DNA from: Thermodesulfovibrio thiophilus DSM 17215
GTDB lineage: Bacteria; Nitrospirota; Thermodesulfovibrionia; Thermodesulfovibrionales; Thermodesulfovibrionaceae
Reading direction: 5' to 3'
Length of the DNA stretch: 64,000 nt
NCBI RefSeq assembly: GCF_000423865.1
Contig: NZ_AUIU01000013.1
Coordinates: 124,001 to 188,000 of the forward strand
A program made the translations under genes and the position numbers. The notes beneath the pieces are model-generated. The model was not told where the DNA came from, did no database searches, and was given only the letters and a program-made list of their open reading frames with translations. Numbering within the stretch: the stretch's first letter is position 1; the number at the start of each line of letters is the position of its first letter. Positions 12,612-36,525 of this stretch are shown here, piece by piece.

Positions 12612-12619
12612 TATAAATA

Positions 12620-12701
12620 GCCGAAGTGGTGGAACTGGTAGACACGCACGTTTGAGGGGCGTGTGGGGAAACCCATGCGGGTTCGAGTCCCGCCTTCGGC
12701 A
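12620..12701 (+). tRNA. tRNA-Leu (anticodon GAG)
   Basis: A full cloverleaf can be drawn: acceptor GCCGAAG/CTTCGGC, D-arm with the class II insertion, anticodon stem CACGT/GCGTG with loop TTGAGGG (GAG, reading CUC/CUU), a long variable arm TGGGG-AAA-CCCAT and T-arm GCGGG-TTCGAGT-CCCGC. The discriminator is A and CCA is not encoded. Its 3' end is the attachment site of the downstream element and stays intact. Confidence 0.96.
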
Positions 12702-12703
12702 TT
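12676..12703 (+). repeat. attL, 28-bp direct repeat in tRNA-Leu 3' end
   Basis: The sequence begins TGCGGGTTCGAG and ends CGGCATT, covering the T-arm and 3' acceptor strand of the tRNA. It is identical to 36370-36397. Confidence 0.92.
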
Positions 12704-12750
12704 AAATTCTTTTTAAAAATCAATAAGTTTTGAGTCTATAAAACTGATTT

Positions 12751-12770
12751 AGGGGAAGTCTGGGGGAAAT
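12751..12770 (+). repeat. Paired GGGGAA sites, left end (possible integrase arm sites)
   Basis: Two GGGGAA(G/A)T copies are spaced 11 bp apart (AGGGGAAGTCT then GGGGGAAAT), between attL and the stop of the topoisomerase gene. The right end has the same arrangement in the same orientation at 36289-36308. Arm-type integrase or excisionase binding is inferred. Confidence 0.6.
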
Positions 12771-14906
12771 TTAGTCAGATAGTCTATCCAAATCCTGAAT
12801 GTGGTTTAGGATAGACTCTTTAGCTTTTTTAAAGGTATCATACCATACTTTTGTATCTGGTATTTTGTTAGAGTCAAAAAATTTCATAATAGTATTTTCT
12901 GAATATTTCAGGATTATCTCAGGATTAACTGCATCAAGTTCATAACAGTTATTTAGGTCATGTTCTTTTTTGAATTTAGGTGATCTTGAATCTTTAGGTT
13001 TAACAGGCATGGGTATAAGGTTTTGATAGATTTCTTTCTGATCTGGATTCAGTAGAATTCTAATAACCTTTGCATAATCCTTAAGTCTTTCTTTTATGTT
13101 TCTGTAGATGTCCCATCCTGAGGGGTCAAGGTCTCCGAAGTAAAGAACTACACATTTTTTTCCTTTAGAAGATAGTTCTTTGAATCTATCAATAGCCTCT
13201 TGAATTTTAGTTCTTGAAGTGTATCCTCTACTTGGGAAGAGAAGTAATTGATATTTGGTTGCAATATCTCTAAATAATCTGACAAGGGCGTCTTTTTCAA
13301 TCCACAGTTCAAGGTAGTAATCCTGAAACTCCCATATATTGATTTCTGGTTTTTCTAAGGCACTGAGGAGAGAATCTTTTAGGTAAGCAACAGGGTCGTA
13401 GTTAATAGAGATGGTATTTGGGTGGATCTCATATCTTGAACGATCCTCAAAAACAAAGTAATCTATGATACCGATTTCTCTGGCATCTGTTAAGGAATTA
13501 TCAAGATTTGTATAACTGGAATAGAAATTGGCAATGTAACCAACACTGACAAGCTGATAATAAAGCTGCCTGATGGTAATAATTTTGTATTTCTGGATCA
13601 TGGAATCTATAATGTCTTTGCATTTCAAGAAAAAGACATATCTCCAAGGTTGAATGGATATGCCATATTGGTCTTTGATGAAGGCTTTGGTTATCTTTTG
13701 CCTTTTTGCCTCTTCAACACATTCATCTTTGATTAGTAACCAATTACCATCACCTGTAAGTTTTTTCGGTATTCTTTTGAAAGCACTTTTAATTGTATTG
13801 GTAAGATCAAAATTGATAAAAATCTCCTTTTTATTTGGGTCTCTGTAAGAAATATTAGGAGAGTGATACCAGATGATACACTGTATTTTTTTCTTACCTC
13901 TTACTTCTTCAAGAAAAAAATCAATATTGCTTACAAAATTTTCAGTTATAGCATACAATGATTTTACAATTGTTCCATTCACAACATAAAAATCCTCTTC
14001 AATTGAGTCTGTTGTAACAATTTCAACTGATTGATTTTGATGAGTAAGATATTTGTATTTGAAGATTTTAATTCTTTCTGTTATAGATTTCTTTCCAAGA
14101 AGAAATGGTTTAAGAGGTTTTGCATAATTTCTTAAAAAATTGAAAAAATTGTCTTGACTAATTTTGCATATTTTTGATCTTTTAAGCAAGGTTGGACTGA
14201 TACCGAAAAGAAGTCCAATGTCATAATGGGTATAGCCTTGTTCAAGGAATTCATTGATTAAGTCAATAAGTTCTGACTCTGAGTAAGATTTAATATCACA
14301 GAGAGAGGGTTTTTTAATTTTAACCCGAGGATAGACTCGAGAATTAAAAATAAATTCAATATGGGGGTTAACAGTGATGAATTTTTTAATATATGAGTGA
14401 ATTTTTTCTGATATGTAAGCATCCTCTTTTGGGAGAGGCACTATAAAACAGGTTTCATTTTTATAATCTTGAATTTCTTTAATTTCAACTTTAAGCACTT
14501 CCTTAGGAGATTTTGCTTTTCTATTGAGAAGTGTAATATCATATTGTTTTTGGTGAGAATAAACAGTAACAGGGTAGTTGTCAATATCGGATAACATTAA
14601 AGCAATTTTTAAGCCATGCCCGATAGCCCCCCTCTGGTAAGATTTTTTGAAGTTTTTAGTTGATACAAGCTTTGAGAAATCAATTATAGAGAGAATATCT
14701 TTATCAGTTATAACTCCTCGGTTTTTAATTTTTAAAAAATTATCTTTAAATTCTATTTCTAATTTGTAATCGTGCTTTTCTGCCTCATCTGCAGCATTGT
14801 CTAAAAATTCTTTTACAACAACAAGAGATCTAAAGGATAAAGAAGGTATAAATCTTTGAACTTCATCTAACACAGTATATTGATGGAATATAGGTCTTTC
14901 AATCAT
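12771..14906 (-). CDS. Fused type IIB DNA topoisomerase, topoisomerase VIII-like
   Basis: This 711-aa protein joins both halves of a Topo VI-type enzyme. Residues 1-190 form a GHKL ATPase: N-box KEFLDNAADEAE (E33, N37), a G1-like IKNRG at 60-64 and G2 GAIGHGLK at 93-100. Residues about 205-250 hold a helix-turn-helix-like insert. The C-terminal half matches Spo11/TopoVI-A: winged helix TIRQLYYQL with candidate catalytic Y450, then Toprim with E537 (IEKDA), SRGYTSRT and D592/D594 (GDLDPSGWDI). Single-chain fusions of this kind on mobile elements were described as topoisomerase VIII. The usual adenine-binding Asp of the G1 box appears replaced by Asn62. The start is the ATG abutting tandem repeats and has no clear Shine-Dalgarno. 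A JetD-like nuclease is less likely because the ATPase is in the same chain. Confidence 0.8.
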   Translation of the reverse strand: MIERPIFHQYTVLDEVQRFIPSLSFRSLVVVKEFLDNAADEAEKHDYKLEIEFKDNFLKIKNRGVITDKDILSIIDFSKLVSTKNFKKSYQRGAIGHGLKIALMLSDIDNYPVTVYSHQKQYDITLLNRKAKSPKEVLKVEIKEIQDYKNETCFIVPLPKEDAYISEKIHSYIKKFITVNPHIEFIFNSRVYPRVKIKKPSLCDIKSYSESELIDLINEFLEQGYTHYDIGLLFGISPTLLKRSKICKISQDNFFNFLRNYAKPLKPFLLGKKSITERIKIFKYKYLTHQNQSVEIVTTDSIEEDFYVVNGTIVKSLYAITENFVSNIDFFLEEVRGKKKIQCIIWYHSPNISYRDPNKKEIFINFDLTNTIKSAFKRIPKKLTGDGNWLLIKDECVEEAKRQKITKAFIKDQYGISIQPWRYVFFLKCKDIIDSMIQKYKIITIRQLYYQLVSVGYIANFYSSYTNLDNSLTDAREIGIIDYFVFEDRSRYEIHPNTISINYDPVAYLKDSLLSALEKPEINIWEFQDYYLELWIEKDALVRLFRDIATKYQLLLFPSRGYTSRTKIQEAIDRFKELSSKGKKCVVLYFGDLDPSGWDIYRNIKERLKDYAKVIRILLNPDQKEIYQNLIPMPVKPKDSRSPKFKKEHDLNNCYELDAVNPEIILKYSENTIMKFFDSNKIPDTKVWYDTFKKAKESILNHIQDLDRLSD

Positions 14907-14942
14907 ATATTAGATATAATACCAATATTAGATTTAATACCA
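14907..14942 (-). promoter_or_regulatory. Tandem 18-bp repeats abutting the topoisomerase start
   Basis: Two 18-bp copies with a single mismatch lie end to end (ATATTAGATATAATACCA and ATATTAGATTTAATACCA). Each contains the imperfect palindrome TATTA-GATA-TAATA. They touch the ATG at 14906 and include -10-like TATTAT on the coding strand. This suggests an operator and possibly a leaderless transcript. Confidence 0.5.
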
Positions 14943-16631: not shown

Positions 16632-17306
16632 TTAAAGCCTAAGCATGTATCCCTTTTCCTTCAACCAATCCTTGTATTTTTCATAATCTGGCATAAGCAG
16701 CTTTACTTTATTCCAGAACTTCTTAGAATGGTTCTTCTCTTCAAGATGAACAAGCTCATGAACCACGACATAATCAATAACAGGCAGCGGTGCCATAATT
16801 AATCTCCATGAAAAATTAAGATTTCTCCTTGCACATGAGCCCCATCTTTTTTCTGCATTTGTAATTTTTACTCTGTCATAGATAAAACCTCTTTTTTGAG
16901 AATAGAACTTTACTCTCTCTGATATTTTTTCATAGGCTGCCTGCTTATACCAATTAATAAACACTTGCCTTGCTTCGGACAATGCATCTTTTGACAGGAA
17001 AAAACCATTTTCAAATATTAAAGGACTCTGCTGATTTTCAACTATGGTTAATTTATAATTTCTACCAAGATAGAGAAATCCTTCCCCGTTTACAAATTCC
17101 TTTTTACTGAACTTTGGCTCTCTTGACCTTATCTCTCTTTTTTTCTTCTCAATCCATCTTCTATGTCTATTTACAACCTCAATTATGGCATCATCCTTTA
17201 AATGAAAAGGTGCTTTTACTACCAAAGTGGCTTCATCTGTAATCTGTAAACCTATTGTTTTTCTTTTTGTTCTAATTATTCTGTCTATTTTTATATCACT
17301 TGCCAT
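16632..17306 (-). CDS. YgjP/SprT-like zinc metallopeptidase (DUF45)
   Basis: A 224-aa DUF45 protein. The zinc site HELVH at 183-187 is followed by H193 (KNHSKKFW), and RWGSC at 154-158 is typical of the family. It overlaps the end of hsdR by 11 bp, the last gene of the restriction operon. DUF45 genes are often found beside type I restriction genes. A role in turnover of restriction subunits is plausible but unproven. Confidence 0.85.
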   Translation of the reverse strand: MASDIKIDRIIRTKRKTIGLQITDEATLVVKAPFHLKDDAIIEVVNRHRRWIEKKKREIRSREPKFSKKEFVNGEGFLYLGRNYKLTIVENQQSPLIFENGFFLSKDALSEARQVFINWYKQAAYEKISERVKFYSQKRGFIYDRVKITNAEKRWGSCARRNLNFSWRLIMAPLPVIDYVVVHELVHLEEKNHSKKFWNKVKLLMPDYEKYKDWLKEKGYMLRL

Positions 17307-20300
17307 AGATATGATAGGCTAACTCAATAAGCTTCTGAGCTATTTCATTTCTCTTTTTAAACAAAGAATTTTCTGAACTGTCGTAATCCGAAAAAGAACT
17401 TATTTTCCCTATAAAGTGAGAAATAAGATATGATTTAAGCCTTTTTTGTTTTGGGTAGCTTTCCCAAAAATCAACTTGTTTTATTTCTTCCCTAATAATG
17501 CTTAAGACATCTTGAGTAAGCCCAGTTAGAAACTCTATCTGCGATTCATTTAGCTTCTCAATTGGTTCTTTTCCAAATAACTCCCTCTTCAGAAGTCCCA
17601 AAAAAGGCATCTCTTTCTTTGGTTCAAATCCAAAATTTTTCTCACTCTCACGACCTTTTCTTATTTCCTCTCTAAGATTTTCCAGTTCAGCAGCAAGGAT
17701 ATCCCATTTTTCTTTATATTCTTCAAGCATTTTCTTAAGTCTATCTGAAAATCTCTCATAAAGTTCTGGGTCTTCCTCAAAGTGTTTTTCAATGTGCTCT
17801 ATAATCGCATTTTTTAGCTCCTCTGCCTTTGCTTTATCTGATTTTTCTCTCTTTAGCTTTACTAAAAATCCTTCATCAAGAAGAGGTATTGGTGGAATTT
17901 TGGGGTCAATTCCCTTTGAAATCAGGTATTCCTCTACAATCTCCCTTATTTTTCTGCTTGCCTCTTTGATGCTAAGCTTTTCATCTCTGTATCTCTGTCT
18001 GGCACTTTCTTTTATGAAATTTAGTATTTTCAGGTCTTTGACATATTTTAAAGCCTCTGGGTCTGGAAGTACTGCATCCATCGCTCTATTAAACTTTCTC
18101 ATAAGTGTTATGAATTCGTCTCTTACCTCTTCATCTACAAGAAGGTCAATACACTCATCAATTTCCTCTCTCCAGTTTTCAATCTGATACTTTTTGAAAA
18201 AGTCCATAATTAAGTTATAAATATATCTTAGCTCATCAATGCTTTTTGCTTTATCCTTTACTATCTCCATTATTTCTTCAATGTCTTTGTCAGCATAAAT
18301 AGAGAGAGCCTCCTTTAAATGTTTCAATACTCCAACATAGTCAACTACAAAGCCACAGCTTTTGTTTCTATATACCCTATTTACTCTTGCAATTGCCTGA
18401 AGTAAATTGTGTTCCTTTATAACGTTGTCTAAATACATTACCTGCTCAATCGGAGCATCAAAGCCTGTAATAAGCATACTCTGAACTACTAAAATTCCCA
18501 CATCTCCTGTTATGCCTCTTTCGTTTGCACTTTGAAAGGGCATGTTAAAACTCGCTATTACTCTTTCGTGCTCCACTGGGTCTGTATAGGTTGCATACTC
18601 AGGTGGGTCATTAGGAGCTCCTGAGATTACTACAGCAACTTTTAATCTTTCAAGAAGGGATGTATCAACTCCGGTTTTGTCCTTGGTTTTTAATTCATTG
18701 ATTTTATCCCTAATAGCTTCTTCTAAAGCATTCTTGTATCTTATTGCAGCAAGTCTTGAGGCAGTTACAACCTGTGCCTTAAAGCCGTTAGGAAAGACAT
18801 GAGTAACGTAATGCTCTATCATGTCTTTTGCTTTATGTCTAATTACACCTTCATGCTCAAGATAGGCTTTCCATGTGAATTTGCCAAGTATTTTTCTCTG
18901 CTCATTATCTGCAAAGGTGAATATATCAAGAAATTTCTTATCAAGCTCTGTTTCGTCTCTTATTTCTGCCTCGTGGGCTCTTCCCTCATAAACAATATCA
19001 ACAGTAACACCGTCTTCTACAGCCTGTTTTATTCCGTATTTATCAATATAATCTCCAAAGGTCATCTCAGTTTTCTCAATTGGTGTTCCTGTAAAGGCTA
19101 TTTTTACTGAATTAGGCAAAGACTTTCTGAGATTAGCACCCAAGAGTTTATACTGTGTTCTGTGAGCTTCATCAATCATTATTAAAATTTTTGGTGAAGT
19201 ATTTAGCACTGGAAAATCTGTTTTAAGCTCCCTTTCCTGAAACTTATGAACCATTGCCATAACAAGGTCTGGCGTGTCAGTTCTTAAGAGTTCTTGGAGT
19301 TCTTTGATGCTCTCTGCTGGATGAACTGTAAAACCAACGCTTTTTGAGGTTTCTTTCAGCTGACTGTGAAGAGCCTTTCTATCAGTAATAAAGACTATCT
19401 TATAACTCTGAAACTCAGGGTCATGATAAAGCTCTCTTACGGCAAACATCATAGTTAGTGATTTTCCAGACCCCTGAGTATGCCATATTATTCCACCTTT
19501 TTCTTCTGGAGTTTTGCCTTCTTTTAGTCTCTTGATTAATTTTTTCACTGCTCTAAACTGTTGATACCTCGCTACAACCTTTATGAATCCGCCCTTTGAG
19601 TCTTCTTTAAAAATTGTATAGCTGTGAAGAAGGGCTAAAAGAGTATTTTTTGACAGCATTCCCTGACACAAAACCTGCTGGCTTGATATGCTTCCCTCTG
19701 AACTTATATCTGAAAGGCTGTATGGATAAGGGTCTTTCCACTCTACAAAATGTTCATATCCCGATGTAATTGTTCCGTATTTTGCTATTTGCTTTGAAGT
19801 AGCAACAGAAAACAGATTATACCAAAACAGTCTCTCATTTCCCTCATTCACACCCCTTCTGTTTGAGTATCTCATTATTTGAGTTATTGCCTCACCTATT
19901 GGGTCAGAAATTGCTGGAGATTTGCACTCAATAACCACTAAGGGCAGTCCGTTAACGAAGAGTACAATATCGGGGATAATGTGTTTCTCTGTTCCTGGAA
20001 TATTTACTTTAAATTGCGATATGGCAGTGAAGGAGTTGTTTTCAGAATTCTTAAAATCTAAGAACCAGGCTGTAGGGCTTCTATCACCTGTTTTTCTGTT
20101 TTCGCTTACCGATGTTCCTTCAAGAAGTAAGTCATGAATCTCTCTGTTTACCTCTAAGGGAGTTCTTGACTGAGGTCTTGTTAACTTTTCTATAACCTGA
20201 TTAATCTGGTCTTCTTCAATCCAGTTGTTTATTTTTTTTATTGCCTCTTTAAGCTCACTCTCAAGAACTACCTCTCTGAAACTCTCTCTGAACTTTTTAA

Positions 20301-20460
20301 TTTCGCCTAATATTGGCTCTCCTGTTGAGGAAAAACTCAGTATCTCTCTTATATCTTCAGGATTGTCCTTATTTTGACGATAAAACTTCCATCCAAGCCT
20401 CTGAAGGTGGGCAAGAAAGGGATTCTCTACATAGTGTTCTTCATCAAGTTTTGTAAACAT
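17296..20460 (-). CDS. hsdR: Type I restriction enzyme R subunit
   Basis: A 1054-aa motor and nuclease subunit. Residues about 155-182 form the PD-(D/E)XK nuclease site (D164, E178-C-K180). The SF2 translocase follows, with Walker A QGSGKS around 329-334, DEAH at 430-433 and FTGTPI soon after. The C-terminal third is charged and helical, as expected for assembly with HsdM2S. It begins 3 bp after the hepT stop and overlaps ygjP at its end. All key motifs are intact, so the system looks active. Confidence 0.96.
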   Translation of the reverse strand: MFTKLDEEHYVENPFLAHLQRLGWKFYRQNKDNPEDIREILSFSSTGEPILGEIKKFRESFREVVLESELKEAIKKINNWIEEDQINQVIEKLTRPQSRTPLEVNREIHDLLLEGTSVSENRKTGDRSPTAWFLDFKNSENNSFTAISQFKVNIPGTEKHIIPDIVLFVNGLPLVVIECKSPAISDPIGEAITQIMRYSNRRGVNEGNERLFWYNLFSVATSKQIAKYGTITSGYEHFVEWKDPYPYSLSDISSEGSISSQQVLCQGMLSKNTLLALLHSYTIFKEDSKGGFIKVVARYQQFRAVKKLIKRLKEGKTPEEKGGIIWHTQGSGKSLTMMFAVRELYHDPEFQSYKIVFITDRKALHSQLKETSKSVGFTVHPAESIKELQELLRTDTPDLVMAMVHKFQERELKTDFPVLNTSPKILIMIDEAHRTQYKLLGANLRKSLPNSVKIAFTGTPIEKTEMTFGDYIDKYGIKQAVEDGVTVDIVYEGRAHEAEIRDETELDKKFLDIFTFADNEQRKILGKFTWKAYLEHEGVIRHKAKDMIEHYVTHVFPNGFKAQVVTASRLAAIRYKNALEEAIRDKINELKTKDKTGVDTSLLERLKVAVVISGAPNDPPEYATYTDPVEHERVIASFNMPFQSANERGITGDVGILVVQSMLITGFDAPIEQVMYLDNVIKEHNLLQAIARVNRVYRNKSCGFVVDYVGVLKHLKEALSIYADKDIEEIMEIVKDKAKSIDELRYIYNLIMDFFKKYQIENWREEIDECIDLLVDEEVRDEFITLMRKFNRAMDAVLPDPEALKYVKDLKILNFIKESARQRYRDEKLSIKEASRKIREIVEEYLISKGIDPKIPPIPLLDEGFLVKLKREKSDKAKAEELKNAIIEHIEKHFEEDPELYERFSDRLKKMLEEYKEKWDILAAELENLREEIRKGRESEKNFGFEPKKEMPFLGLLKRELFGKEPIEKLNESQIEFLTGLTQDVLSIIREEIKQVDFWESYPKQKRLKSYLISHFIGKISSFSDYDSSENSLFKKRNEIAQKLIELAYHIYGK

Positions 20461-20463
20461 TTT

Positions 20464-20808
20464 TCAGATTTTGTTTTTTAGTTCTTTAACGATCTCTTTA
20501 AGTTCTGGTATCCTATTCTTGACGATGTCCCATACGACCTCTGCATCTATTCCGAAATATTCGTGTACTAAAATATTTCTTAGTGCAGCTATTTTTCTCC
20601 AATCTATGTTTGTAAGCTTTCTTTTATCCTCAGGTATGTGCTTTGATGCTTCACCAATGTTTTCAAGACACTTTAAAACTGCATAATAAACAAGCTCGTT
20701 ATTATAAAAATCCTGCCAGTTATCTATTTTTTCAATAAATCTTTTTATACGGTCAATTTCTTCCAATATGTCTTGAAGAACTAATTGTAAATCTCTCTTT
20801 TTAGACAT
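20464..20808 (-). CDS. hepT: HepT-like HEPN toxin (DUF86)
   Basis: This 114-aa HEPN-fold protein carries the RX4HXY ribonuclease motif at R77, H82 and Y84 (RNILVHEYF). It overlaps the mntA-like gene by 8 bp, the standard HepT-MntA arrangement. In characterised pairs the nucleotidyltransferase AMPylates the HepT motif Tyr to neutralise it. The pair is inserted between hsdS and hsdR in the same direction with overlapping or abutting frames. Confidence 0.88.
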   Translation of the reverse strand: MSKKRDLQLVLQDILEEIDRIKRFIEKIDNWQDFYNNELVYYAVLKCLENIGEASKHIPEDKRKLTNIDWRKIAALRNILVHEYFGIDAEVVWDIVKNRIPELKEIVKELKNKI

Positions 20809-21097
20809 AGATTACCTCTTGTAGTATTTTGGGAGCAAGTGCTGGTTTTAAAGCAGACTTCATGATTAAATCAACACTTACATTAAGAAGTTCTTCAAGA
20901 TAAAATTTCAAGTCCATGTAATTATCAAAAGTTTTATAACCTTCGGAAAATTCTACGAGAATATCTATGTCGCTTTCATTGGTTTGTTCTTCTCTTGTGT
21001 ATGAACCAAAAATTCCTATTTCTTTAACGCCGAACCTTTTCTTTATTTCATCTCTCTGTTCGTATAGAATTTTCTTAATTTCCTCAATTTTTCTCAT
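20801..21097 (-). CDS. mntA: MntA-like minimal nucleotidyltransferase antitoxin
   Basis: A 98-aa minimal nucleotidyltransferase. GS at 31-32 and D43/D45 form the GSX10DXD catalytic signature. Partnered with HepT by overlap and probably its antitoxin through AMP transfer. The 5' end lies within the last 14 bp of hsdS, so its translation depends on the restriction operon. Confidence 0.88.
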   Translation of the reverse strand: MRKIEEIKKILYEQRDEIKKRFGVKEIGIFGSYTREEQTNESDIDILVEFSEGYKTFDNYMDLKFYLEELLNVSVDLIMKSALKPALAPKILQEVIYV

Positions 21098-22343
21098 CTT
21101 GTAATTCCTTTTCTTCCGAAATAAAATGATTCACTCTTATTTTACCACTAAGTAAATCTTCCATAAGTCCCTTTTTTAATCTTTCAAGTTTTTCCTTGTA
21201 TTTTTCTTCTTTTTCAATTACTTCGTCAATCTGGGAGAGAATTTCAGCAATCCGTTGTTGTTCGGAAAGGGGTGGGAGAGGGATAATTATTTTCAGAAGT
21301 TCAGATGGATTAACTGCAGGATAATTTGATCCTGTAATAAATTTAGATATCTGTTTCAAAAAGATATCATCATACAATACCAAACAAAATAAAAATTCAG
21401 AAAATAACCTGTTTTTAGCTCTTAAAACAGCAAATCCCGTAGAACAAATATACTCATTATATTTTGGTTTAATATAAGCAAAAGCTTTTAAATTTGGTCT
21501 TACAGTTGAGACTATAATATCTTGAGTTTTAACTAAGCGACGTGCTCTACTTGGTGCATTTTCAGTCTTGTAAATTTTAATGCTTGTTATTTGCCCTTCA
21601 ATTATTGACTCAATATCAATATAGAATATGGTTTTATTCTTTTCGTATTTTAATGTATCTGGATTTAAATAAACTTCGTTTTCCAATCTCACCACTTCCC
21701 ACTCCTCGGGTATGCGTCCGAGGGGAGAATCCTTAAATCTATGGGTTTCTTCGCTTCGTATGTTACCGTTTTCATCTATTCCTTTCGTGAGGAGTTCCTC
21801 CATCAATCCCTGTTTTATCCGTTTATATTTTTCAATGAGTTGTTGAGTTTTCTCTAAGCAGTTATCCACAGTCTCAAGAATCTCAGCAATTTTCTGCTGT
21901 TCAGGAAGAGGGGGAAGAGGGATTACAATATTTCTCAGTAATTTCTGATTCAATTTTTCTCTGGTACTGCCAGATATGTAAGACGATATGTCTTCAAAAT
22001 TAATAAAATAACTCAGGAATTCGTTATTCAAAAATTCTGATTTTCCTTTCATGATATGGACATGGTTATTCGCCCAAAATTTACCCTTCATTAAATAAGC
22101 AGTTGTCTCAAATCTAAAAAACTTTCCCCCATCTTCTGCAACCAAAACATATTCACCATCAAAAATCCAGTTATCAATGTAATCTATTATTCCAGTAGCT
22201 CCACAATAAGGGAAACTCCCCTGGATATTTTTTCTAAATTCAGAATCTAAAGGAATTCTCTTGCTGTCTAATATTTCAGTGACTTCTTCCAACTTAACAA
22301 ACTTCCAACCTTCAGGTAATTTTAAAGTAGCATTCATGAGCAT
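21084..22343 (-). CDS. hsdS: Type I restriction specificity subunit
   Basis: A 419-aa HsdS with two target recognition domains. The first starts PEGWKFVKLEEV, the second IPEEWEVVRLENEV near residue 215. Each is followed by a conserved coiled-coil spacer with PLPPLPEQQKIAEIL and PLPPLSEQQRIAEIL. The two halves give the bipartite DNA target, which cannot be predicted from sequence alone. It lies 56 bp after hsdM and overlaps mntA. Confidence 0.95.
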   Translation of the reverse strand: MLMNATLKLPEGWKFVKLEEVTEILDSKRIPLDSEFRKNIQGSFPYCGATGIIDYIDNWIFDGEYVLVAEDGGKFFRFETTAYLMKGKFWANNHVHIMKGKSEFLNNEFLSYFINFEDISSYISGSTREKLNQKLLRNIVIPLPPLPEQQKIAEILETVDNCLEKTQQLIEKYKRIKQGLMEELLTKGIDENGNIRSEETHRFKDSPLGRIPEEWEVVRLENEVYLNPDTLKYEKNKTIFYIDIESIIEGQITSIKIYKTENAPSRARRLVKTQDIIVSTVRPNLKAFAYIKPKYNEYICSTGFAVLRAKNRLFSEFLFCLVLYDDIFLKQISKFITGSNYPAVNPSELLKIIIPLPPLSEQQRIAEILSQIDEVIEKEEKYKEKLERLKKGLMEDLLSGKIRVNHFISEEKELQDEKN

Positions 22344-22399
22344 CTAATTTTTTCCTTTTTCATCACCTATTTCTGACATAGCACAAATTTCTTCAAATT

Positions 22400-24853
22400 T
22401 CAGACTCTTTCATAATAACCAAGCTTTTCTAAAAATTGGTTGAGTTTGCTAATTTCTATGTCTCTCTGTTCCTTCAGGGTAAACAGGGGAATGTTATATT
22501 TATCCCAGAGCTTTTCAAATAATTTGATTAGCTCCCTTTTTTCTGCTTTGAGATATTTTTTCAGCTTTTCGTTAATTAGTTCATAGAATTTATCAAGTAT
22601 CAGTTCCTTTGCCTCTTCATCTGTAAGAGATTTTCTCTTTTCGGCAATCTTATCCTGTAGTTGTTTGGTTTTGATTTTTAATTCTTTGCTGTAGCCCTTT
22701 AATTCCTTATCTTTTTTAGCTAATTTACCTATTAGCTCTTCCCATTTCTGAGCTTCCTTGAGTGCAATATCACTTCCGCTCTTTTTAAGGTCATCAATAA
22801 GCTTTTTCAGATATTTCAATGCCTTACTTAGTGTTTTCTCTCCTTGTTCTTCCTCTTCCCAGTCTTCAATCTCTTCAAGAAGCTCGTTTATCTCTCCCTC
22901 TACTTCAGAGAGCTTAGCTTCTATTGTTTCTATCTCTTGAGCATCTGAGATAAAAAACTTATCCCTTATTCTCTCATCTTCAAGGAGATTTTCACTCCAT
23001 CCAGCTGAAAGGATTGTTTTAAAATCATAGACTAAATCATCCCACCAGTTTGCAAAGACTCCAGCAACTTTGAAATCATCAAGAAGTCCGAGAGGTTTTA
23101 ATTTTTCCTTGAGCAGATTCAAAGCCTTAACTCTGAATTCCCAGAGATTGTTGTTGTCCTGTAATTTCTCAATATCTTCCCTGATTTCAACCCACCATTC
23201 ATTGAGTTTGTCACTGTATTTCTGAAAAGTTTCATTTACATTAGGATTGCCATCAATTATTTCTCTTATTTTGTCTTTATTTTCAATTGTTTCAATGAAT
23301 TCAAGATAATCCTGATTTTTATTTTTCAAAAGAAGATCATAGTTAATTCCAAACTTAGAGAAAAATTCTTCGTAAAGAGCGACTTCTCTCTTGGGTATTC
23401 CACCAATTAGGTGGGCACGGACATCTTCTGGTTCTGGGTCTGGTGAGTTATCCACATACCGCCTGATGTTTAGATTAAAGTCATTCTCTTCTATTTCTTT
23501 GAAGTCAACTATACGGGAGTATTTTGGTATTTCTCTTTTATGTTCAAATACAGTAACAATTTTTTCAATGTCTTCGGGTCTGAGATAATTCTGATTTCTC
23601 CCCTCTCCATATTCTCTGTCTGCATTAATGAAGAGGATTTTATTTTTGAGACTATCTGGTTTTCTCTTATTTATAACGATAATACAGGCTGGGATACCTA
23701 CATTATAAAAGAGTTTTGCAGGAAGTCCAATAATAGCCTCAATGAGGTCATCCCTTAAAATTCCCTCTCTTATAACCTTTTCCTGTCCCCCTCTAAAGAG
23801 AACACCGTGAGGCATTACAGTTGCCATAACTCCATCGTCTTTCAAGCTTGATATCATGTGCTGTAAAAACATGAGGTCAGCTTTTTTACCATTTTCAGGA
23901 GTAAATCCATATTTAAATCTTTCAGGGTAGTTCATATTGTTACGGGTATAATTTTGTGAAAACGGTGGATTGGCTAAAACTCTGTCAAATCTTTTGATAT
24001 AGTCTCCTTCAAGAAACATTGGTTTGGCAAGAGTATCCTCGTTCTCTATGTGAGCATCGGGAATGTCATGAAGAATCATATTCATCTTGCAGATTGACCA
24101 TGTAAGTCCGTTGTTTTCCTGTCCGTAAAGAGCTAAGTTTCTTGGATTTTGTCCCTGCTCTTCTACATAATGCCTTGCCTCTATCAGGAATCCTCCAGAA
24201 CCAACTGTAGGGTCATATACGGTCATTCCTTCCTTTGGTTTAACAAGTCTGACCATTAGTTTTTTAACATGAGCAGGAGTATAAAATTCACCACCCTTTT
24301 TGCCGGCAGAGTCTGCAAACTGCTTGAGAAGATACTCATAGGCAGCTCCAAGAAGGTCTGGAAATTCAAAATCCTCATTGGTTAGTCTGTATTTATTAAA
24401 ATGATGTATTAAGTCAATAAGCTGGCTATCTTTAAGTTTCGTTCTTCCTACTTCTCGGTTAAAATCAATATGCCTAAGAACCCCATTTAGTTCGGGATTG
24501 TATTCCTCAACTGAAGCAAGAGCTTTGTTTAGACTATTTCCCACATCTTCTTTTAAGTTTAGTATATTGCTCCATCTTGCCCTCTCAGGAATGAAGAAAG
24601 TATCACCATAGGAATCGGGATCTTCAAGAAGTTCATTTATTTGTTCTTCCGTTAAACCCTGCGTTCTAAATTCTTGTTCAAGTTCTGCTCTCTTTAATTC
24701 AAACACATCAGAAGCTCGCTTTAAAAAGAGCATTCCAAATATGTATTCCTTGTACTCTGAGGCATCCATCTTACCCCTAAGAATATCAGCAGCTTTAAAA
24801 AGATGCGTCTCAAGTTGTCTTAGGGTGATTTTTGAGTTTGAATTATTTCTCAT
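22400..24853 (-). CDS. hsdM: Type I restriction M subunit with long C-terminal coiled coil
   Basis: An 817-aa N6-adenine methyltransferase. An N-terminal helical domain is followed by the SAM site DPTVGSGGF at about 214-222 and the catalytic NPPF at 295-298. Typical HsdM is about 500-550 aa. Here residues about 530-817 add a very charged Glu/Lys-rich coiled-coil region (for example [13 protein letters not shown]). The ATG follows AGAGAGG. It is the first gene of the operon. Confidence 0.94.
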
Positions 24854-25055
24854 AATAAGCCTCTCTAAATATTACTTATTAAAGTATTTTTGAGTCAATT
24901 TATTTCCAAATAGATTAATCAAATAAGAAAAACACTCAGAAGGAAATTAATTTTATTTTTATTCAAATATTCTCTTTTCTAAATATTGCTGAAATTAAAA
25001 TGTTATATAATTTTATAAGAATGTTTATAAGTTGTCTGTAAGGAGGTTATAAGCA

Positions 25056-26405
25056 ATGGATGAAGAGAAAACAATTGAATTGAATGAAATTGATTTTGAA
25101 CAATCATTAGAAGAAGAGACTGAAATTATACCACAAGATCGGAAAATCTATACTGATAAAGGAGACCCTGAAATAGATTCTCTATATGGAAAATATAAAA
25201 GGGGAAAACTTATATTACAACCCGATTTTCAACGATATTTTGTGTGGGATAATGCAAAATCATCTCGCTTAATTGAGTCTGCTTTCCTTGATATACCTTT
25301 ACCAGTTATTTATTTATCTGAAGGACAAGATGGCAAAGAATATGTAATTGATGGTCAACAGAGGTTAACTGCTTTCTTCTCATTTATTGACGGTAAATTT
25401 CCAGATGGAAAAGATTTTAAATTATCTGGACTAAAGGTATATAAGAATTTAAATAGTAGGACTTTTAAAGAATTAGATGAAGAGTTTCAAGACAAAATTA
25501 AATATTGTAAGATTCGTACCATTACATTTAAAAAAGAGTCAGACCCTGACCTTAAATTTGAAATTTTTGAAAGATTAAATACTGGATCTGTTTCTTTAAA
25601 TGACCAAGAATTAAGAAATTGTGTTTATAGAGGTCCTTATAACGATTTGTTAAAAGAGCTTGCTAAAGATAGAGATTTTATGTATCTATTAAATTTAAAA
25701 ACACCTGAAAAAAGAATGAGAGATGTGGAACTTGTTCTAAGGTTTGCCAGTTTTTACCATTCAACTTATCTTAATTATAAACCACCTATGAGAAAATTTC
25801 TTAATAATGATATGGAGAAATATCAGTACATAACTGACAAAGATAGTATTGAACTAAGAACAGTATTTAAAAATTCAGTAACTATAATTAAATCCTTACT
25901 TGATAAACATGCTTTCAAAAGATTTTACAAAGGAAATGAAAAAAATCCAAATGGATATTGGGAGCCTAAAAAATTCAATGCTTCTCTTTATGATATTTTA
26001 ATGTTTAGTTTTGCACGAGAAGATAAAAATAAAGTCTATCAAAATTTAGATTCTATTCGTGAAGCACTTGTATATCTTATGACTAATGATCAGGAGTTTA
26101 TAGATTCAATAGAACTTTCAACAAGCACAGTTCAGGCAGTAAGAACAAGATTTGATAAATGGAGATTAGCATTACAAGAAATTATAGGAATTTCTCAAAA
26201 GGAAACTCGTTGTTTTTCTCTAAAATTTAAAGAAGAACTTTATAAAAAAGATTCCACCTGTTCAATTTGTGGTCAAAAGATTCATCACATAGATGATGCT
26301 GCAATTGACCATATTGAGCAATATTGGAAAGGTGGCAAGACTATTCCAGAAAATGCTCGGCTGACACACAGATACTGCAATTGGTCAAGACCGAGAAAAG
26401 AATGA
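25056..26405 (+). CDS. DUF262-HNH protein (GmrSD-like nuclease)
   Basis: A 449-aa protein with an N-terminal DUF262 ParB/Srx-like domain (QPDFQR at 55-60, DGQQRLTA at 99-106) and a C-terminal HNH nuclease. The nuclease zinc pairs are C402-X2-C405 and C441, with H419, N433 and H438. GmrSD-type enzymes of this class cut modified phage DNA, and DUF262-HNH proteins are common in defence islands. The ATG follows AAGGAGG. It is divergent from hsdM across 202 bp and separated by 207 bp from the next operon. Confidence 0.85.
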   Translation: MDEEKTIELNEIDFEQSLEEETEIIPQDRKIYTDKGDPEIDSLYGKYKRGKLILQPDFQRYFVWDNAKSSRLIESAFLDIPLPVIYLSEGQDGKEYVIDGQQRLTAFFSFIDGKFPDGKDFKLSGLKVYKNLNSRTFKELDEEFQDKIKYCKIRTITFKKESDPDLKFEIFERLNTGSVSLNDQELRNCVYRGPYNDLLKELAKDRDFMYLLNLKTPEKRMRDVELVLRFASFYHSTYLNYKPPMRKFLNNDMEKYQYITDKDSIELRTVFKNSVTIIKSLLDKHAFKRFYKGNEKNPNGYWEPKKFNASLYDILMFSFAREDKNKVYQNLDSIREALVYLMTNDQEFIDSIELSTSTVQAVRTRFDKWRLALQEIIGISQKETRCFSLKFKEELYKKDSTCSICGQKIHHIDDAAIDHIEQYWKGGKTIPENARLTHRYCNWSRPRKE

Positions 26406-26612
26406 TACGACTAAGAGAAACTTATGGCACAGCATAAAACGAAGTTACATTATTTTATTTTTGCAAACCTTGCTTATAATTTTCTTTTACAAGGTAAGGA
26501 TTTTAGCTGAAAAATTTCCTAAATACTTGCGTAGAAGGATTGTTTACAATTTATAAATTTCATAAAAAGTTGATTTTAAAATAGAATATTTTATATTTAA
26601 TAGGAGGGGATA

Positions 26613-26987
26613 ATGAAAATAAGAACTGATTTCGTAACAAACAGTAGTTCAGTAAGTTATATAATAACGATGTGTGAGGATATGGTTGATATTTATTTGA
26701 GATTCTATAGCCTTGAAGAGAATGATCTTAAAACGGCAAAAATTATAAATACAATTCGTAATGACTTAAGGAAAAACGGAACCTGTGTTTTTCTGGAAGG
26801 TAAAGAAATAATAACTAAAAAAATTACATTTGATACCAGTGAAACTTTAACTGATGATGTAGTAGAAACTCCTATTGAAGAAATGTCGGATGAGGAATTA
26901 TGGTCTTATATTCTTGGTGAATATATCATGAACTATAAACTTTGCAAAGTCTGGGGCTTTGGCATTACACAGATAGAAACATATTAG
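26613..26987 (+). CDS. Small protein with N-terminal TDFVTNSSS motif, unknown
   Basis: A 124-aa protein starting MKIRTDFVTNSSSVSYIIT, then an acidic, weakly structured body and a C-terminal KVWGFGITQIETY. Similar N-termini (FVTNSSSSSF-like) recur in small uncharacterised bacterial and phage proteins to my recollection; I cannot name a family. AGGAGGGG precedes the ATG. Its stop is followed within 3 bp by the GTG of a radical SAM gene. It could be a substrate or precursor of that enzyme, a partner subunit, or a regulator; nothing in the sequence decides. Confidence 0.75.
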   Translation: MKIRTDFVTNSSSVSYIITMCEDMVDIYLRFYSLEENDLKTAKIINTIRNDLRKNGTCVFLEGKEIITKKITFDTSETLTDDVVETPIEEMSDEELWSYILGEYIMNYKLCKVWGFGITQIETY

Positions 26988-26989
26988 CA

Positions 26990-28039
26990 GTGAAAATCAG
27001 ACGTCATAGTAAAGATTACAACTTCATTGGTGATACCCTGTCTGGAATTACTTTTAGATGGGGCAGAAATTTCAAAGAAAACCCTAAATATGCTCCTTGG
27101 CCAGAGCTTGCAGATATTTCTATTTCCAATCATTGTACAAAAGGTTGTAATTACTGTTATCGGAATAGTAGTGAGAATTTTTCATTTATGTCCTTAGAGG
27201 ATTACGAATATATTTTAAATGAGCTACAACATCCTATTTGGGGAAATGTTTTTCAAATTGCTATTGGCGGAGGAGAACCATTGGAACATCCTCAACTAAA
27301 ACAAATCCTTGAATTAACAATATCCAAAAATATCGTACCAAATTTGACTACAAATGGGATTCATATCAACAGTGAATATGCGAAGTATTTTAAAAACAAG
27401 GTTGGAGCCGTTGCGTTATCGGTTGAGGACATTCAGACACTTAATTCAGAGAAGGTAAGAATATTACTCAAAGAATCTGTCAAAACGAATATTCATTATT
27501 TATTAAGCAATAGAAACATCTCTCAAGCAGTTGATATTCTTAAAGGTAAATATAATGAAATTTTTTTAGGGTTAAATAGCATTATTTTTTTGACTTATAA
27601 GCCTCTTGGTAGAGGAAGTTTAGCAGACATCCTGAAGCTGAATGATAACCTGAAGAAATTTATCAAACAGATTGACAATAATAAATGTTCTACACGAATA
27701 GGCTTTGATGCTTGTTTTGTGCCCCTTTTGCTTCACTTTACAAAAATTGATCCAATCTATGTTGATTCTTGTGAAGCTGGTTTCTATTCAATATACATAG
27801 ATGAAAAACTGAATGTAAAGCCTTGTTCTTTTGATAACACGGGAATATATTCATTTAACTTAAGAGAACATTCTTTTTCAGATATTTGGGAGAACAAACT
27901 TAAAAAATATAGAGAAAATGCTTTAAATCTTTGCAATAGAAAGTGCAAAAATAAAAAAGAATGTAGAGGTGCCTGTTATGTCTATAAGGAAATAACACAT
28001 TGTTTCAGTGAAACAAAAGAGGGAGCATTATATGTTTAA
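26990..28039 (+). CDS. Radical SAM/SPASM protein
   Basis: A 349-aa radical SAM enzyme with the CX3CX2C motif CTKGCNYC (C49, C53, C56), the SAM-binding GGGEPLEHP, and a Cys-rich C-terminal region (CEAGFYS..., KPCSFD, CNRKCKNKKECRGAC, THC) typical of SPASM maturases. I chose the GTG at 26990, giving VKIRRHSKDYNF. The frame is open to a TTG at 26942 inside the previous gene, and neither has a clear ribosome site, so coupling is likely. It overlaps the STAND gene by 8 bp. SPASM proteins usually modify peptides, which makes the 124-aa neighbour or the STAND protein a candidate target. Confidence 0.88.
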   Translation: MKIRRHSKDYNFIGDTLSGITFRWGRNFKENPKYAPWPELADISISNHCTKGCNYCYRNSSENFSFMSLEDYEYILNELQHPIWGNVFQIAIGGGEPLEHPQLKQILELTISKNIVPNLTTNGIHINSEYAKYFKNKVGAVALSVEDIQTLNSEKVRILLKESVKTNIHYLLSNRNISQAVDILKGKYNEIFLGLNSIIFLTYKPLGRGSLADILKLNDNLKKFIKQIDNNKCSTRIGFDACFVPLLLHFTKIDPIYVDSCEAGFYSIYIDEKLNVKPCSFDNTGIYSFNLREHSFSDIWENKLKKYRENALNLCNRKCKNKKECRGACYVYKEITHCFSETKEGALYV

Positions 28040-31000
28040 GATTGACTGGCATCAATTTGAAAAAAATGCAGAAGGTTCCCCGCAGAAATTTTTTGAAAAG
28101 TTTATTTATCAAATAGCAGTTCAAAAATACCAATCGTTTGGATTGATAAAGTACTTTTATAACACCCCTGGGTCTGAGTTCTACCTTATTTTGAATAAAG
28201 ATTGTGAACTTGAAAATATTTCACTAAAGGCAGGAGATGCAGTTGGATGGCAAGCTAAATTTTGGTTTAATAGAAGTGATCCAGAGAATTCGCCTTTAGA
28301 TTCGGGCAAAAGAGATGAATTAGTAAAGGAATTTAAAAAATCTCTTGAATACGAACCTAATTTAAAAATTTGGATAATATGTACTCCTGGTCTTTTTTCT
28401 AATACTAAGACTTCATCTGGAATAAAACCATTTGAAGAACTTGAAAAAGCACTTAAGTTAATAAAAGCTGATATAAAGTTGATACTTTGGAATAAACCAA
28501 TGCTTGAAAGTTTTGCTCATGCCGAACCGGAAAAATATGGTTCAATCTTTAACTACTATTGCTCAACTAATTTCTTAAGTTTTAAACTCTTTGAAGCTCA
28601 TTCCAGAAAACGTTTGAATATACTTCAAAAGAGATATGATACCGATCTTTATGTCCCAGGAGAGATTGATAGGGAAATCTTATCTTCCATATTCTATAAG
28701 GACTTGATTGGTAAGCTTCATAACAAAATTAAACATGCTCTGGAAGAAAAAGAAAAACTTGTTAGGGGTCACTTATACCGAGTGGTTATAGATAGATTTC
28801 TTAACTCACAGGGAGCTCCTGAAATATCTGATAAAGAAAAAGAGAAAATTAGAAAGCAAAAGAAGTTAATTGATGCTTTCTTGTCCCTTTACAATAAATT
28901 GCATTCATATGAGGAACAGGAAAATACACTCACATTTATAAAAAGTTTATTGGATACCTTTGATTCAAATAAAGATGAGATCATTACATTAATTAATGAA
29001 TTAGGGCTTCCTGAAAGATTTTACGATTTAGAAGATATAGATATTAACTATGAATTAGACATTCAACATACTTGGGGTTTAATTAATTACCTTTACACTT
29101 TAGCAGAAAATTTGTTGAAAAACATAATTAAAATATACAAGCTTATAAATAACATTTCACGCCAAGTATTTCACGTATTTGCAGAGGCTGGTTTTGGAAA
29201 AACCAACTTAGCTTGTTATCTAACTGAACAACTTTTGAAAAAAAGAGCTCCTGTTATACTAATTCCAGCGAGTGAAATCAATGGCGGAGATTCTATTCAA
29301 AATCAAATTGCATCATTTCTTGGCATAAATGTTTCAAATAATTTTGTTAATTTCATAGGAATACTTGACAGTATTGGTTTCCATTATGGTATTAAAATAC
29401 CTATAATTATTGATGGATTGAATGAAACCCAGCCAAGTGCATCTGCATGGTACCCGCAATTGCAATATATAATTGATGACATAAAGAAGTTTTCCAATGT
29501 TATGCTTATTACAACATGTAGAAATGCTTATGCAAAACAAATATTCGGTGAGGAGCATATTGAGAATATTCCTAATTTTATTAAATTAGAAGGATTTAAG
29601 AATAATATTAAAGAAGCAATAAGTAAGTACTTCCGAAAGTACGAAATAACTGTTAAAAATAAGGATTATAACAGAGAACTTTTAAATAACCCTCTTTTGT
29701 TGAAAATATTTTCTCAAGCTAATAAAGGAAAAACAATAGAAATAAATGAGATCAGTATTTATCCCGCAATTGATTCATATATAACCGAAATAATTGAGAG
29801 CGTCTCAATTCAACATGGTGAGATTAACCCATTAAGAAAAAATCAGGTTTTAAAAGGAATCAAAAATTATTCACTACATCTATGGAACAATAAAATTCGC
29901 GGAACTGCATATCCAGACGAAATTATTAAACTTTTTGACCCAGATTATAACATTAACAAAGATTGGCATGATACTGTCACATATAAAATTATTGATGAAG
30001 GCATGCTTTTTAGAAACATACATGATAATATTGAATTCGTTGAATTTACTCATGACCTTATAGGTGGATATTGTATTGCAAAGTATGTATTTTTTGATGA
30101 TAAAAATGAAGATGAAATTATTAGAAACATAACATCTATTGATAATATATTAAAGCTAACATCTGAAGAAGCGATAGGTAGACATCCACTTGCGGAAGAT
30201 ATTCTTAAAGCCATAGTTTATCTTACACCAGAACATACAGGTAAGCAGTTATTCGAACTTACTAATAATCAAGAAATTCTCAAGGCTTCTTTGCGAGAAA
30301 TAAGAATAATAATATCTAAACCAAAAGGAGTAGAATCTCTAATAAAAAAATTTAAATCCATATCACCCGATAGCACTATACTGTCTACTTTACTTGAAAA
30401 TTTAATAAATGAAATTCTAAGAAGTGATGAAAACATTATTCTATCTGAATTATTAGAAGAGATTTTACTTAAATTAACATTAGTTCAAATAGATTTAAGT
30501 TGGAGTGAAATTATTCGAAGAAAATCTGATAGAATAATCTCCTATCTTCATCAAATAATTGAATTGTTTGAATCTGGAAAGGAATGTAAAGACCATATCA
30601 ATTGGAGGCTATGTTTCATTGGCTTACTTTTATCCTCAACTAATAGATATCTTCGGGATTTGGCAACAAAGACCTTGGTAATAATAGGGAGAAAATATCC
30701 AGAGACTCTTGTAGATGTTTTCATTAGATTAGAAGGAACACCGGACCTCTTTATTCTCGAACGCTTAATTGCCTCAATCTGTGGGGTATTTCTCACTATT
30801 GATAACAAAGAACTATTATTCAGAGTATGTAAACATTTAGAAAAAAACTATATTGAGCAGATTAGAACAACACATGTACTAATACTTGACTATATCATTA
30901 CATTACTTAATTACGCTGAAAAATTTTTTAATTATACTCCTTCTCTAAGGAGACTTAAAGCAAATGGGTTAATTGATTGGCAAAAAGATACTGAATGCTT

Positions 31001-32129
31001 AACCAAAGTCACTGATCCTACATGGGGTTTTGGTCCGGTAGAGTATGATTTTGCAAAGTATAAAATTGGTACTTATTTGGCGCAGTATCGGCATAAAGAG
31101 AATTCTAAACTTCCAACTCTTAAAGAAGCCCTTGCAATGGTTGTATGGAGGATTAAAGAATTAGGATATACAAAGGAATTATTTGAAGAGGTTGATAGGT
31201 CCCTAAATAATCAAGAGCATAAAAAATATGGATACGGTAGTCCCTATTCTGCAACAACATATAGCAAAAAATATAGGGATATTGCATTTTATGAACTTTA
31301 TGGTTATAACATTATCAAAGGAATAAGCAAAGATTTCAAGGACGAAGAAGGATTTAGAGTTTTACCAACATATATAGACCCCACATTTCCCAAAATTTCC
31401 AGTAAGCGTCAGCTGATAACTTGTTGTTTCCTTCCTAAGAAGTCCGATGATGTGCAAGCATGGATAATCAATAATGAATCTCCCTTTATAGAAGAACATT
31501 ATATAAGAAGAGATATAGAAAAAGATAATACAGAATGGGTGATGCTATATGGTCATCTTTTTCAAGAGGGAATTGAGAAGTCAAGGATTGATATTAGTTT
31601 ATACACTATAATAGTCCCAAGAGATTCTGCAAGGAGAGTTATAAGAAAAATTGAAAAGAATGAATTAGATTTATTTATGCTTGTATCCGAAAACCATAAT
31701 GTATATGGAGGAGAAATTCCATGGAGCGAAAACTATTTAGATAGTACCATTACAAATGATATGAGTGGTGACAATATTGAATTGTATTTACCAGTCTCTT
31801 ATTATTCTCGGGAAACAAAGTCAAAAATTGAGGTTTTACATTATGCATATATCCCGTCTAAAAGGCTTGCACTACATTTTGATCTAAAAATAAATATAGA
31901 TGATTTCAATTTATACGAAAAGAATGGTAAGAAAGCATCTTCTTATATTCATGATAATTATTCAAGATTTTTATATTTTCGTAAAGACCTGATTCAACAA
32001 TTTTTAAGTAATCATAGGCAATCTATGCTTTGGATTGAAATAGCCTCTAAATATGGGGCATATGGAGAATATGAAAACAAGTATGATCCTTCATTTCAAG
32101 ACTACCGATTTATTAAATGTTTTTCTTAA
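28032..32129 (+). CDS. Large nuclease-like/STAND NTPase, probable defence sensor
   Basis: A 1365-aa protein. The N-terminal 130 residues resemble a Mrr-like PD-(D/E)XK nuclease fold, with E49 and a QAK at 74-76 (GWQAKFW). A STAND/NACHT NTPase follows, with Walker A AEAGFGKT at 384-391, Walker B IIIDGLNE (D461) and a TTCRNAY sensor. The C-terminal half is helical, HEAT/TPR-like, then ends in an alpha/beta region with EIASKYGAYG. This effector-STAND-repeat layout is that of Avs-type antiphage sensors, though I cannot assign a known Avs type. The ATG at 28032 follows AGAGGGAG; a GTG at 28008 is open upstream. Confidence 0.8.
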   Translation: MFKIDWHQFEKNAEGSPQKFFEKFIYQIAVQKYQSFGLIKYFYNTPGSEFYLILNKDCELENISLKAGDAVGWQAKFWFNRSDPENSPLDSGKRDELVKEFKKSLEYEPNLKIWIICTPGLFSNTKTSSGIKPFEELEKALKLIKADIKLILWNKPMLESFAHAEPEKYGSIFNYYCSTNFLSFKLFEAHSRKRLNILQKRYDTDLYVPGEIDREILSSIFYKDLIGKLHNKIKHALEEKEKLVRGHLYRVVIDRFLNSQGAPEISDKEKEKIRKQKKLIDAFLSLYNKLHSYEEQENTLTFIKSLLDTFDSNKDEIITLINELGLPERFYDLEDIDINYELDIQHTWGLINYLYTLAENLLKNIIKIYKLINNISRQVFHVFAEAGFGKTNLACYLTEQLLKKRAPVILIPASEINGGDSIQNQIASFLGINVSNNFVNFIGILDSIGFHYGIKIPIIIDGLNETQPSASAWYPQLQYIIDDIKKFSNVMLITTCRNAYAKQIFGEEHIENIPNFIKLEGFKNNIKEAISKYFRKYEITVKNKDYNRELLNNPLLLKIFSQANKGKTIEINEISIYPAIDSYITEIIESVSIQHGEINPLRKNQVLKGIKNYSLHLWNNKIRGTAYPDEIIKLFDPDYNINKDWHDTVTYKIIDEGMLFRNIHDNIEFVEFTHDLIGGYCIAKYVFFDDKNEDEIIRNITSIDNILKLTSEEAIGRHPLAEDILKAIVYLTPEHTGKQLFELTNNQEILKASLREIRIIISKPKGVESLIKKFKSISPDSTILSTLLENLINEILRSDENIILSELLEEILLKLTLVQIDLSWSEIIRRKSDRIISYLHQIIELFESGKECKDHINWRLCFIGLLLSSTNRYLRDLATKTLVIIGRKYPETLVDVFIRLEGTPDLFILERLIASICGVFLTIDNKELLFRVCKHLEKNYIEQIRTTHVLILDYIITLLNYAEKFFNYTPSLRRLKANGLIDWQKDTECLTKVTDPTWGFGPVEYDFAKYKIGTYLAQYRHKENSKLPTLKEALAMVVWRIKELGYTKELFEEVDRSLNNQEHKKYGYGSPYSATTYSKKYRDIAFYELYGYNIIKGISKDFKDEEGFRVLPTYIDPTFPKISSKRQLITCCFLPKKSDDVQAWIINNESPFIEEHYIRRDIEKDNTEWVMLYGHLFQEGIEKSRIDISLYTIIVPRDSARRVIRKIEKNELDLFMLVSENHNVYGGEIPWSENYLDSTITNDMSGDNIELYLPVSYYSRETKSKIEVLHYAYIPSKRLALHFDLKINIDDFNLYEKNGKKASSYIHDNYSRFLYFRKDLIQQFLSNHRQSMLWIEIASKYGAYGEYENKYDPSFQDYRFIKCFS

Positions 32130-36369: not shown

Positions 36370-36397
36370 TGCGGGTTCGAGTCCCGCCTTCGGCATT
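36370..36397 (+). repeat. attR, 28-bp direct repeat of tRNA-Leu 3' end
   Basis: Identical to 12676-12703. Only the T-arm and 3' acceptor strand are present, so it is not a second tRNA gene. Confidence 0.92.
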
Positions 36398-36525
36398 TAA
36401 CATGCTCTTGCTATAATATCTTGTAATTTTTTGTTGGATAACATAATTTTTCTATCAGGTTCAAAAAATATTTTCCAGTATGTTAGGTGATAAGTCTTTA
36501 TTGTTTATTCCGGATCAAAAAATTT

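Follow-up and report, generated by a model that had tools for sequence, protein, structure and literature searches.

A fused type IIB topoisomerase-like protein with a Mini-A-type cleavage half in an integrative element of Thermodesulfovibrio thiophilus

Does the genome of Thermodesulfovibrio thiophilus DSM 17215 encode a single-chain relative of topoisomerase VIII (Topo VIII), as the original prediction proposed for a 711-residue protein, or does the cleavage half of this protein belong elsewhere? We addressed this question in a 64,000-nucleotide stretch of contig NZ_AUIU01000013.1 (positions 124,001 to 188,000 of the forward strand), here called the window, whose own numbering is used for all coordinates. 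Two groups of type IIB proteins form the background. Topo VIII enzymes are for the most part homodimers of a fused chain, and Mini-A is a small homologue of the A subunit found in viruses, as described in excerpts of three reviews (PMC7614492, PMC8185306, PMC8084294). The function of Mini-A is given as unknown in the excerpt of PMC8084294. Coordinates for the gene, its domains and the surrounding element are given in Table 1.

Table 1. Features of the fused gene and its element in the window
Feature	Coordinates	Strand	Remarks
tRNA-Leu (gag), integration site	12620..12701	+	
att repeat, left (tRNA-Leu 3' end)	12676..12706	+	
Fused type IIB topoisomerase-like protein, 711 aa	12771..14906	-	GHKL + H2TH-position segment + transducer + Mini-A
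Mini-A module, residues 416-709	12780..13661	-	Winged helix + Toprim + Mini-A C-terminal ELDA motif
Toprim DxD (D592, D594)	13125..13133	-	Putative metal site together with E537 (13296-13298)
RQLYY, residues 446-450	13557..13571	-	Y450, predicted catalytic tyrosine; R446, partner Arg
Transducer domain, residues 272-387	13746..14093	-	K359 aligned with TSESK/TSDGK lysine of Topo VI-B/VIII
Helical 'HTH-like' segment, residues 204-263	14118..14297	-	Topo VI-B H2TH position; absent from 589-aa G014 relative
GHKL ATPase domain, residues 1-197	14316..14906	-	N1 box E33-N37 and RGxxGxG 92-98 kept
N2 box NxG (N62, G64), not DxGxG	14715..14723	-	From alignment; 4/4 distinct fused proteins
Tyrosine integrase, 425 aa	15003..16280	-	PF00589 5.5e-24; identical DNA in G004
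Variable cargo	16632..32129	.	YgjP, type I RM (HsdR/S/M), HEPN/MNT pair, GmrSD-HNH (NsnA-like), radical SAM, Avs2-like NTPase
ParM/PRTRC-D-like actin, conserved right end	34328..35476	+	PF17989 1.6e-10, PRTRC_D 4.1e-13
DUF5131 protein, conserved right end	35503..36261	+	
att repeat, right	36370..36400	+	Homology with G004 element ends exactly at 36400

Domain architecture of the fused protein

The gene is a single open reading frame on the minus strand, running from 14906 to 12771 with an ATG start and no internal stop. The original prediction gave no strand, and the three motifs that it named, RQLYY, IEKDA (residues 536–540) and GDLDPSGWDI (residues 591–600), are all present. The hallmarks of the type IIB superfamily occur together in the one chain: a GHKL ATPase domain, a transducer domain, a winged-helix tyrosine and the acidic Toprim residues, with an alteration in the N2 box. 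The predicted catalytic tyrosine and its partner arginine were assigned by numbering against R102 and Y106 of Top6A (PMC13040014). Matches of the fused protein to the curated Pfam models HATPase_c (0.0042) and TP6A_N (0.022) and to the NCBIfam model for Topo VI-B (1.4e-7) lie under the respective cut-offs, and a search of PDB sequences with the single protein gave no match. An AlphaFold2 model of the full-length protein has a pLDDT of 75 and a pTM of 0.44, a value at which the arrangement of the domains is not predicted. The best Foldseek match of this model is Topo VI-B (1mx0, E = 5.9e-12). VIA matched residues 4–387 to Topo VI-B and residues 523–676 to Topo VI-A, each with a Z-score of 12.0, and also matched the model to JetD/MksG, the Wadjet nuclease, with a Z-score of about 11. 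Together with the profile comparisons and the phage family match given below, the Foldseek result bears out the predicted combination of GHKL and Spo11/Topo VI-A-like domains in a single chain.

The N-terminal half is a type IIB B half over its full length, nearest to those of Topo VIII and Topo VI. Profile comparison matched it to Topo VIII-B across both the GHKL and transducer domains (3.7e-9) and, with a larger sequence set, to Topo VI-B (6e-8), while same-genome controls scored 0.0077 (MutL), 0.052 (GyrB) and 0.46 (histidine kinase). Against PDB sequences, the N-half profile retrieved MutL only (E = 0.006). In the alignment, K359 coincides with the transducer lysine that is conserved in the TSESK motif of Topo VI-B and the TSDGK motif of Topo VIII, and E33, N37 and the RGxxGxG lid are retained. 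The N2 box reads NxG in all four distinct fusions, against DxGxG in every Topo VIII and Topo VI-B in the alignment. The DxGxG motif of GHKL ATPases contacts adenine. With NxG in its place, nucleotide use by the fused proteins may be weakened or changed.

A helical insert in the middle of the protein (about residues 205–250) had been regarded as foreign to Topo VI-B, a view that the alignments do not support. In the model, helices at about residues 204–263 lie exactly between the GHKL and transducer domains, and the same segment aligns with the H2TH domain of Topo VI-B and with a reduced helical segment in Topo VIII. Since the H2TH domain has this position in Topo VI-B, the segment is, as judged from the alignments, its positional equivalent. 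Structure prediction of the insert, which the original prediction had put forward as a check, recovered the helices (at about residues 204–262), but the segment modelled on its own (pLDDT 74) had no significant match in the PDB.

Relationship of the cleavage half to Mini-A

We place the C-terminal half in the Mini-A family rather than in the Topo VIII clade, an assignment that sequence comparisons support well but not overwhelmingly. The phage 'DNA topoisomerase' family phrog_6247 matches the C-terminal 290 residues of the fused protein at E = 1e-51. In hhalign comparisons this half scores 7.8e-60 against Mini-A, 2.3e-7 against Topo VIII, 4.4e-4 against JetD and 0.014–0.065 against Topo VI-A. 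A Mini-A profile built partly from the fused protein itself gives 413 bits. The corresponding Topo VIII profile gives 32 bits, which come from the GHKL part only and are no better than those of unrelated GHKL proteins. Searches with tblastn returned 76 phage and 16 plasmid records, with the C-terminal part of the protein hit in all matches listed. Among them are phages of the NP1/JG054 group, which encode a textbook Mini-A according to the excerpt of PMC7614492, and an archaeal plasmid with a gene that is annotated as 'Topo Mini-A'.

The comparisons drew on Topo VIII sequences from P. polymyxa pPPM1a, two Pseudomonas megaplasmids, Halalkalicoccus and Synechococcus, Topo VI sequences from haloarchaeal plasmids and Nitrospirota genomes, and JetD sequences from Nitrospirota. 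A scan of the A. degensii plasmid pADEG01 with PF21180 gave no match. As the JetD-rooted tree was unstable (JetD plus fusions, support 30/0), the best-sampled tree omits JetD and a long archaeal Mini-A branch and includes bacterial Topo VI-A. In the best-sampled tree, the fusions and Mini-A are split from Topo VIII and Topo VI-A with support of 100/99, and Mini-A (92/97) and the fusions (94/80) form sister groups.

These trees bear directly on whether the protein could be an ordinary Topo VIII with a divergent A moiety, a reading that we consider improbable. It has in its favour a common architecture, the single chain, the location in an integrated element and a B half that is closest to Topo VIII. 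Two earlier, smaller trees also did not reject a clade of fusions and Topo VIII (p = 0.23 and 0.24), and it is for this reason that we call the Mini-A placement well rather than overwhelmingly supported. With broader sampling of Topo VI-A, however, that clade is rejected (AU p = 0.0066), and the Topo VIII profile finds nothing in the fused protein beyond its GHKL part. The Toprim motif likewise follows Mini-A, reading GDLDPSG rather than the HDADAAG of P. polymyxa Topo VIII, and PF21180 matches Topo VIII (43.7 bits) without matching the fused protein. The designation Topo VIII-like therefore holds for the single chain and the integrative setting but not for the cleavage half.

The Mini-A proteins of the NP1/JG054 group of Pseudomonas phages and of the archaeal plasmid P-7H_11 resemble the fused protein throughout the winged helix and Toprim domain at 28–35% identity and have the motifs RQxYY, WxEK, GDxDPSG and ELDA in common with it, but are stand-alone proteins of about 300 residues to which no B half is attached. 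Topo VIII of P. polymyxa pPPM1a and its relatives likewise has GHKL, transducer, winged-helix and Toprim domains in one polypeptide and is carried on plasmids or integrated elements, but its clade does not include the cleavage half of the fusion, and its N2 box is DxGxG. Topo VI has the same four domains, fold matches to both of its subunits, the segment at the H2TH position and the transducer lysine in common with the fusion, but is made of two subunits rather than one open reading frame, and similarity of its A half to that of the fusion is barely detectable by hhalign.

Kinship with JetD was considered separately and rejected. The Toprim fold is alike, as seen in the VIA comparison and in a PADLOC match to JetD3 (2.4e-9), but profile similarity is weak, the aligned JetD proteins have no YY at the position where the fusion has RQLYY, and no SMC partners were seen beside the fused gene. 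The adjacency of JetD and the fusions in the JetD-rooted tree has support of only 30/0. The phylogenetic check that had been proposed for the C-terminal half found no supported grouping with JetD, and the closest matches of the ATPase half are Topo VIII and Topo VI-B.

The integrative element and its conserved ends

The predicted integrative element is present and can be delimited. It is 23.7 kb long and is bounded by a 31-nt direct repeat of the 3' end of tRNA-Leu (97% identity). The integrase gene lies 96 bp upstream of the topoisomerase-like gene on the same strand. A second element of the same family, with the same ends, occupies the same tRNA-Leu gene in Nitrospiraceae bacterium UBA2600 (G004). 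The tRNA, topoisomerase-like and integrase region (12570–16454) is 99.1% identical between the two, and the right end (32355–36400), with small ORFs and the genes for the ParM-like actin and the DUF5131 protein, is 98.7% identical. Between these conserved ends all of the DNA differs, and the G004 cargo includes genes for Hsp70-TPR, UvrD and a PLD-SNF2 helicase. Near-identical ends around different cargo, as deduced from these two elements, make the fused enzyme part of the mobility and maintenance backbone and not of the exchangeable defence cargo. The topoisomerase-like and integrase genes are 100% identical in DNA sequence between the window and G004 while one chromosomal flank is only 68% identical, which argues for recent transfer. 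In a search for an empty site, the right flank and tRNA-Leu were not neighbours in the genome G001, and the element boundaries therefore rest on the att repeats and the second element. No relaxase, conjugation or replication genes were recognised among the element genes searched.

The presence of defence cargo in the elements speaks for a different reading, in which the protein is a nucleotide-gated effector that makes DNA double-strand breaks, in the manner of Spo11, JetD/MksG or Gabija, and is directed at other DNA, in defence or competition, instead of having a topological role. The JetD-like Toprim matches and the altered DxGxG motif of the fusions point the same way, as does the Ammonifex Topo VIII, which only cleaved DNA according to the excerpt of PMC7614492. 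We nevertheless regard such an effector as unlikely. The fusions retain both the catalytic tyrosine and the transducer, do not group with JetD in hhalign, and lie beside it in the JetD-rooted tree with support of only 30/0. The gene also lies in the conserved integrase end, outside the swapped cargo, a position that speaks against an effector without excluding one.

Several features of the element were noted in passing. Words resembling TGGGGGAAGT are repeated just inside both att sites (12750–12775 and 36288–36312) and are possible arm-type sites for the integrase. The variable cargo contains, on the plus strand, a 1373-aa NTPase (28008–32129) that matches PADLOC Avs2 at 4.3e-89 and a protein with GmrSD_N and HNH domains (25056–26405) that matches PADLOC NsnA at 1.3e-90. 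Directly before the Avs2-like gene (26613–28039, plus strand), a gene for a 124-aa protein overlaps one for a radical SAM/SPASM protein with a weak viperin-like PADLOC match (1.5e-14), and the two could form a peptide/maturase pair.

Proposed activity and distribution of the fused family

On balance, we favour the interpretation that the protein is a single-chain type IIB topoisomerase-like enzyme, built from a Topo VI/VIII-type B half and Mini-A, which belongs to the backbone of an integrated-plasmid-like element and acts on that element's own DNA. Two chains would form a homodimer in which the GHKL domains would close, probably upon the binding of nucleotide, presumably ATP. The transducer would relay this closure through K359 to the winged helices, where Y450 would attack DNA with the assistance of R446 while E537, D592 and D594 of the partner Toprim domain hold Mg2+. 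A second duplex could then pass through the resulting covalent double-strand break before resealing and, in line with the established type IIB mechanism and by analogy with Topo VI (PMC13040014), this strand passage would take place without a C-gate. The enzyme would most likely relax or decatenate the DNA of its own element while this is being excised, replicated or segregated as a circle, or integrated. The adjacent integrase, together with the ParM-like actin encoded in the same backbone, suggests that the protein helps the element to excise, to segregate as a circle or to integrate.

None of the excerpts of the three reviews cited above mentions a Mini-A fused to a B half, and in them Mini-A stands alone, with no ATPase partner. 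Set against those reviews, the fusion of Mini-A to an ATPase half is new, and the 77 Topo VIII proteins of the primary surveys (Gadelle 2014, Takahashi 2020) may include such proteins. More tentatively, and with greater doubt than confidence, we suggest that the fusions represent a third type IIB holoenzyme family, in which Mini-A carries a fused B half of its own, and that phage Mini-As are either remnants that have lost the B half or borrowers of a B partner in trans. If this is true, the Nitrospirota proteins reveal the past or present role of Mini-A. The fusion links Mini-A with Topo VIII, groups that have been described as only distantly related, and offers a natural single-chain subject for the study of Mini-A cutting, DNA passage and nucleotide control. 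Mini-A is common in phages: in one scan of viral contigs, at least 530 stretches encode a relative, of which 80 were kept. All 80 stand alone, and the median length of all matched ORFs is 307 residues. No GHKL half was found by HMM either fused to these 80 proteins or within about 3 kb of them. Viral contigs scanned with the fused protein or its N-terminal half gave no relative, an absence that is weak evidence because the scans used short degenerate patterns.

Among 296 Nitrospirota genomes, five have a Mini-A match, four of them as a fusion (the window's genome included) and one as a stand-alone protein. The taxonomy of these relatives agrees with the Nitrospirota setting of the original prediction. 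The four genomes hold five fused genes: that of the window, two in G004, and one each in G014 and G253. A pattern-based scan of genome contigs, other phyla included, found three loci, and the lack of further loci in it is likewise weak evidence. G004 carries the identical copy at tRNA-Leu and a paralog of 50% identity at tRNA-Val, and both this paralog and the one in G014 have an integrase and a tRNA gene in their vicinity as well. The relative in G253 (CG02_land Nitrospirae) has 779 residues and 30% identity, and this copy ends early. The G014 relative (L026, 12336–14105) has 589 residues and has cleanly lost residues 125–247 in frame, that is, the end of the GHKL domain and the segment at the H2TH position. 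Given this deletion and the early end of the G253 copy, some members of the family may be in decay or may work without ATP.

These shortened copies, together with a fossil C-terminal fragment in G004, would suit a decaying or non-catalytic relic that hitchhikes with the integrase, and many Topo VIII proteins look inactivated according to the excerpt of PMC7614492. For the protein in the window we consider such a relic very unlikely, as its reading frame is fully open and the catalytic residues of the cleavage half are intact in all fusions, whose sequences are only 30–50% identical.

The fossil fragment (L175, 9894–10055, G004:C16) lies inside the G004 element, contains stops, derives from another fused topoisomerase-like gene and is the trace of an earlier element. 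The surroundings of the G004 paralog (L021, G004:C8) include DruA, NurA and a HerA-like ATPase, and just upstream of the topoisomerase-like gene at this locus is a gene for a 449-aa protein without a Pfam match, which is common to G014. Matches of the Topo VIII profile across Nitrospirota were rejected as evidence of Topo VIII, as this profile hits many GHKL proteins. Another Nitrospirota genome contains a Toprim half of canonical Topo VIII-like type that is truncated (L197, 1903–2529, G134:C34; profile 1.3e-66), and several Nitrospirota genomes carry adjoining Topo VI-A and Topo VI-B genes of bacterial Topo VI (L191–L196).
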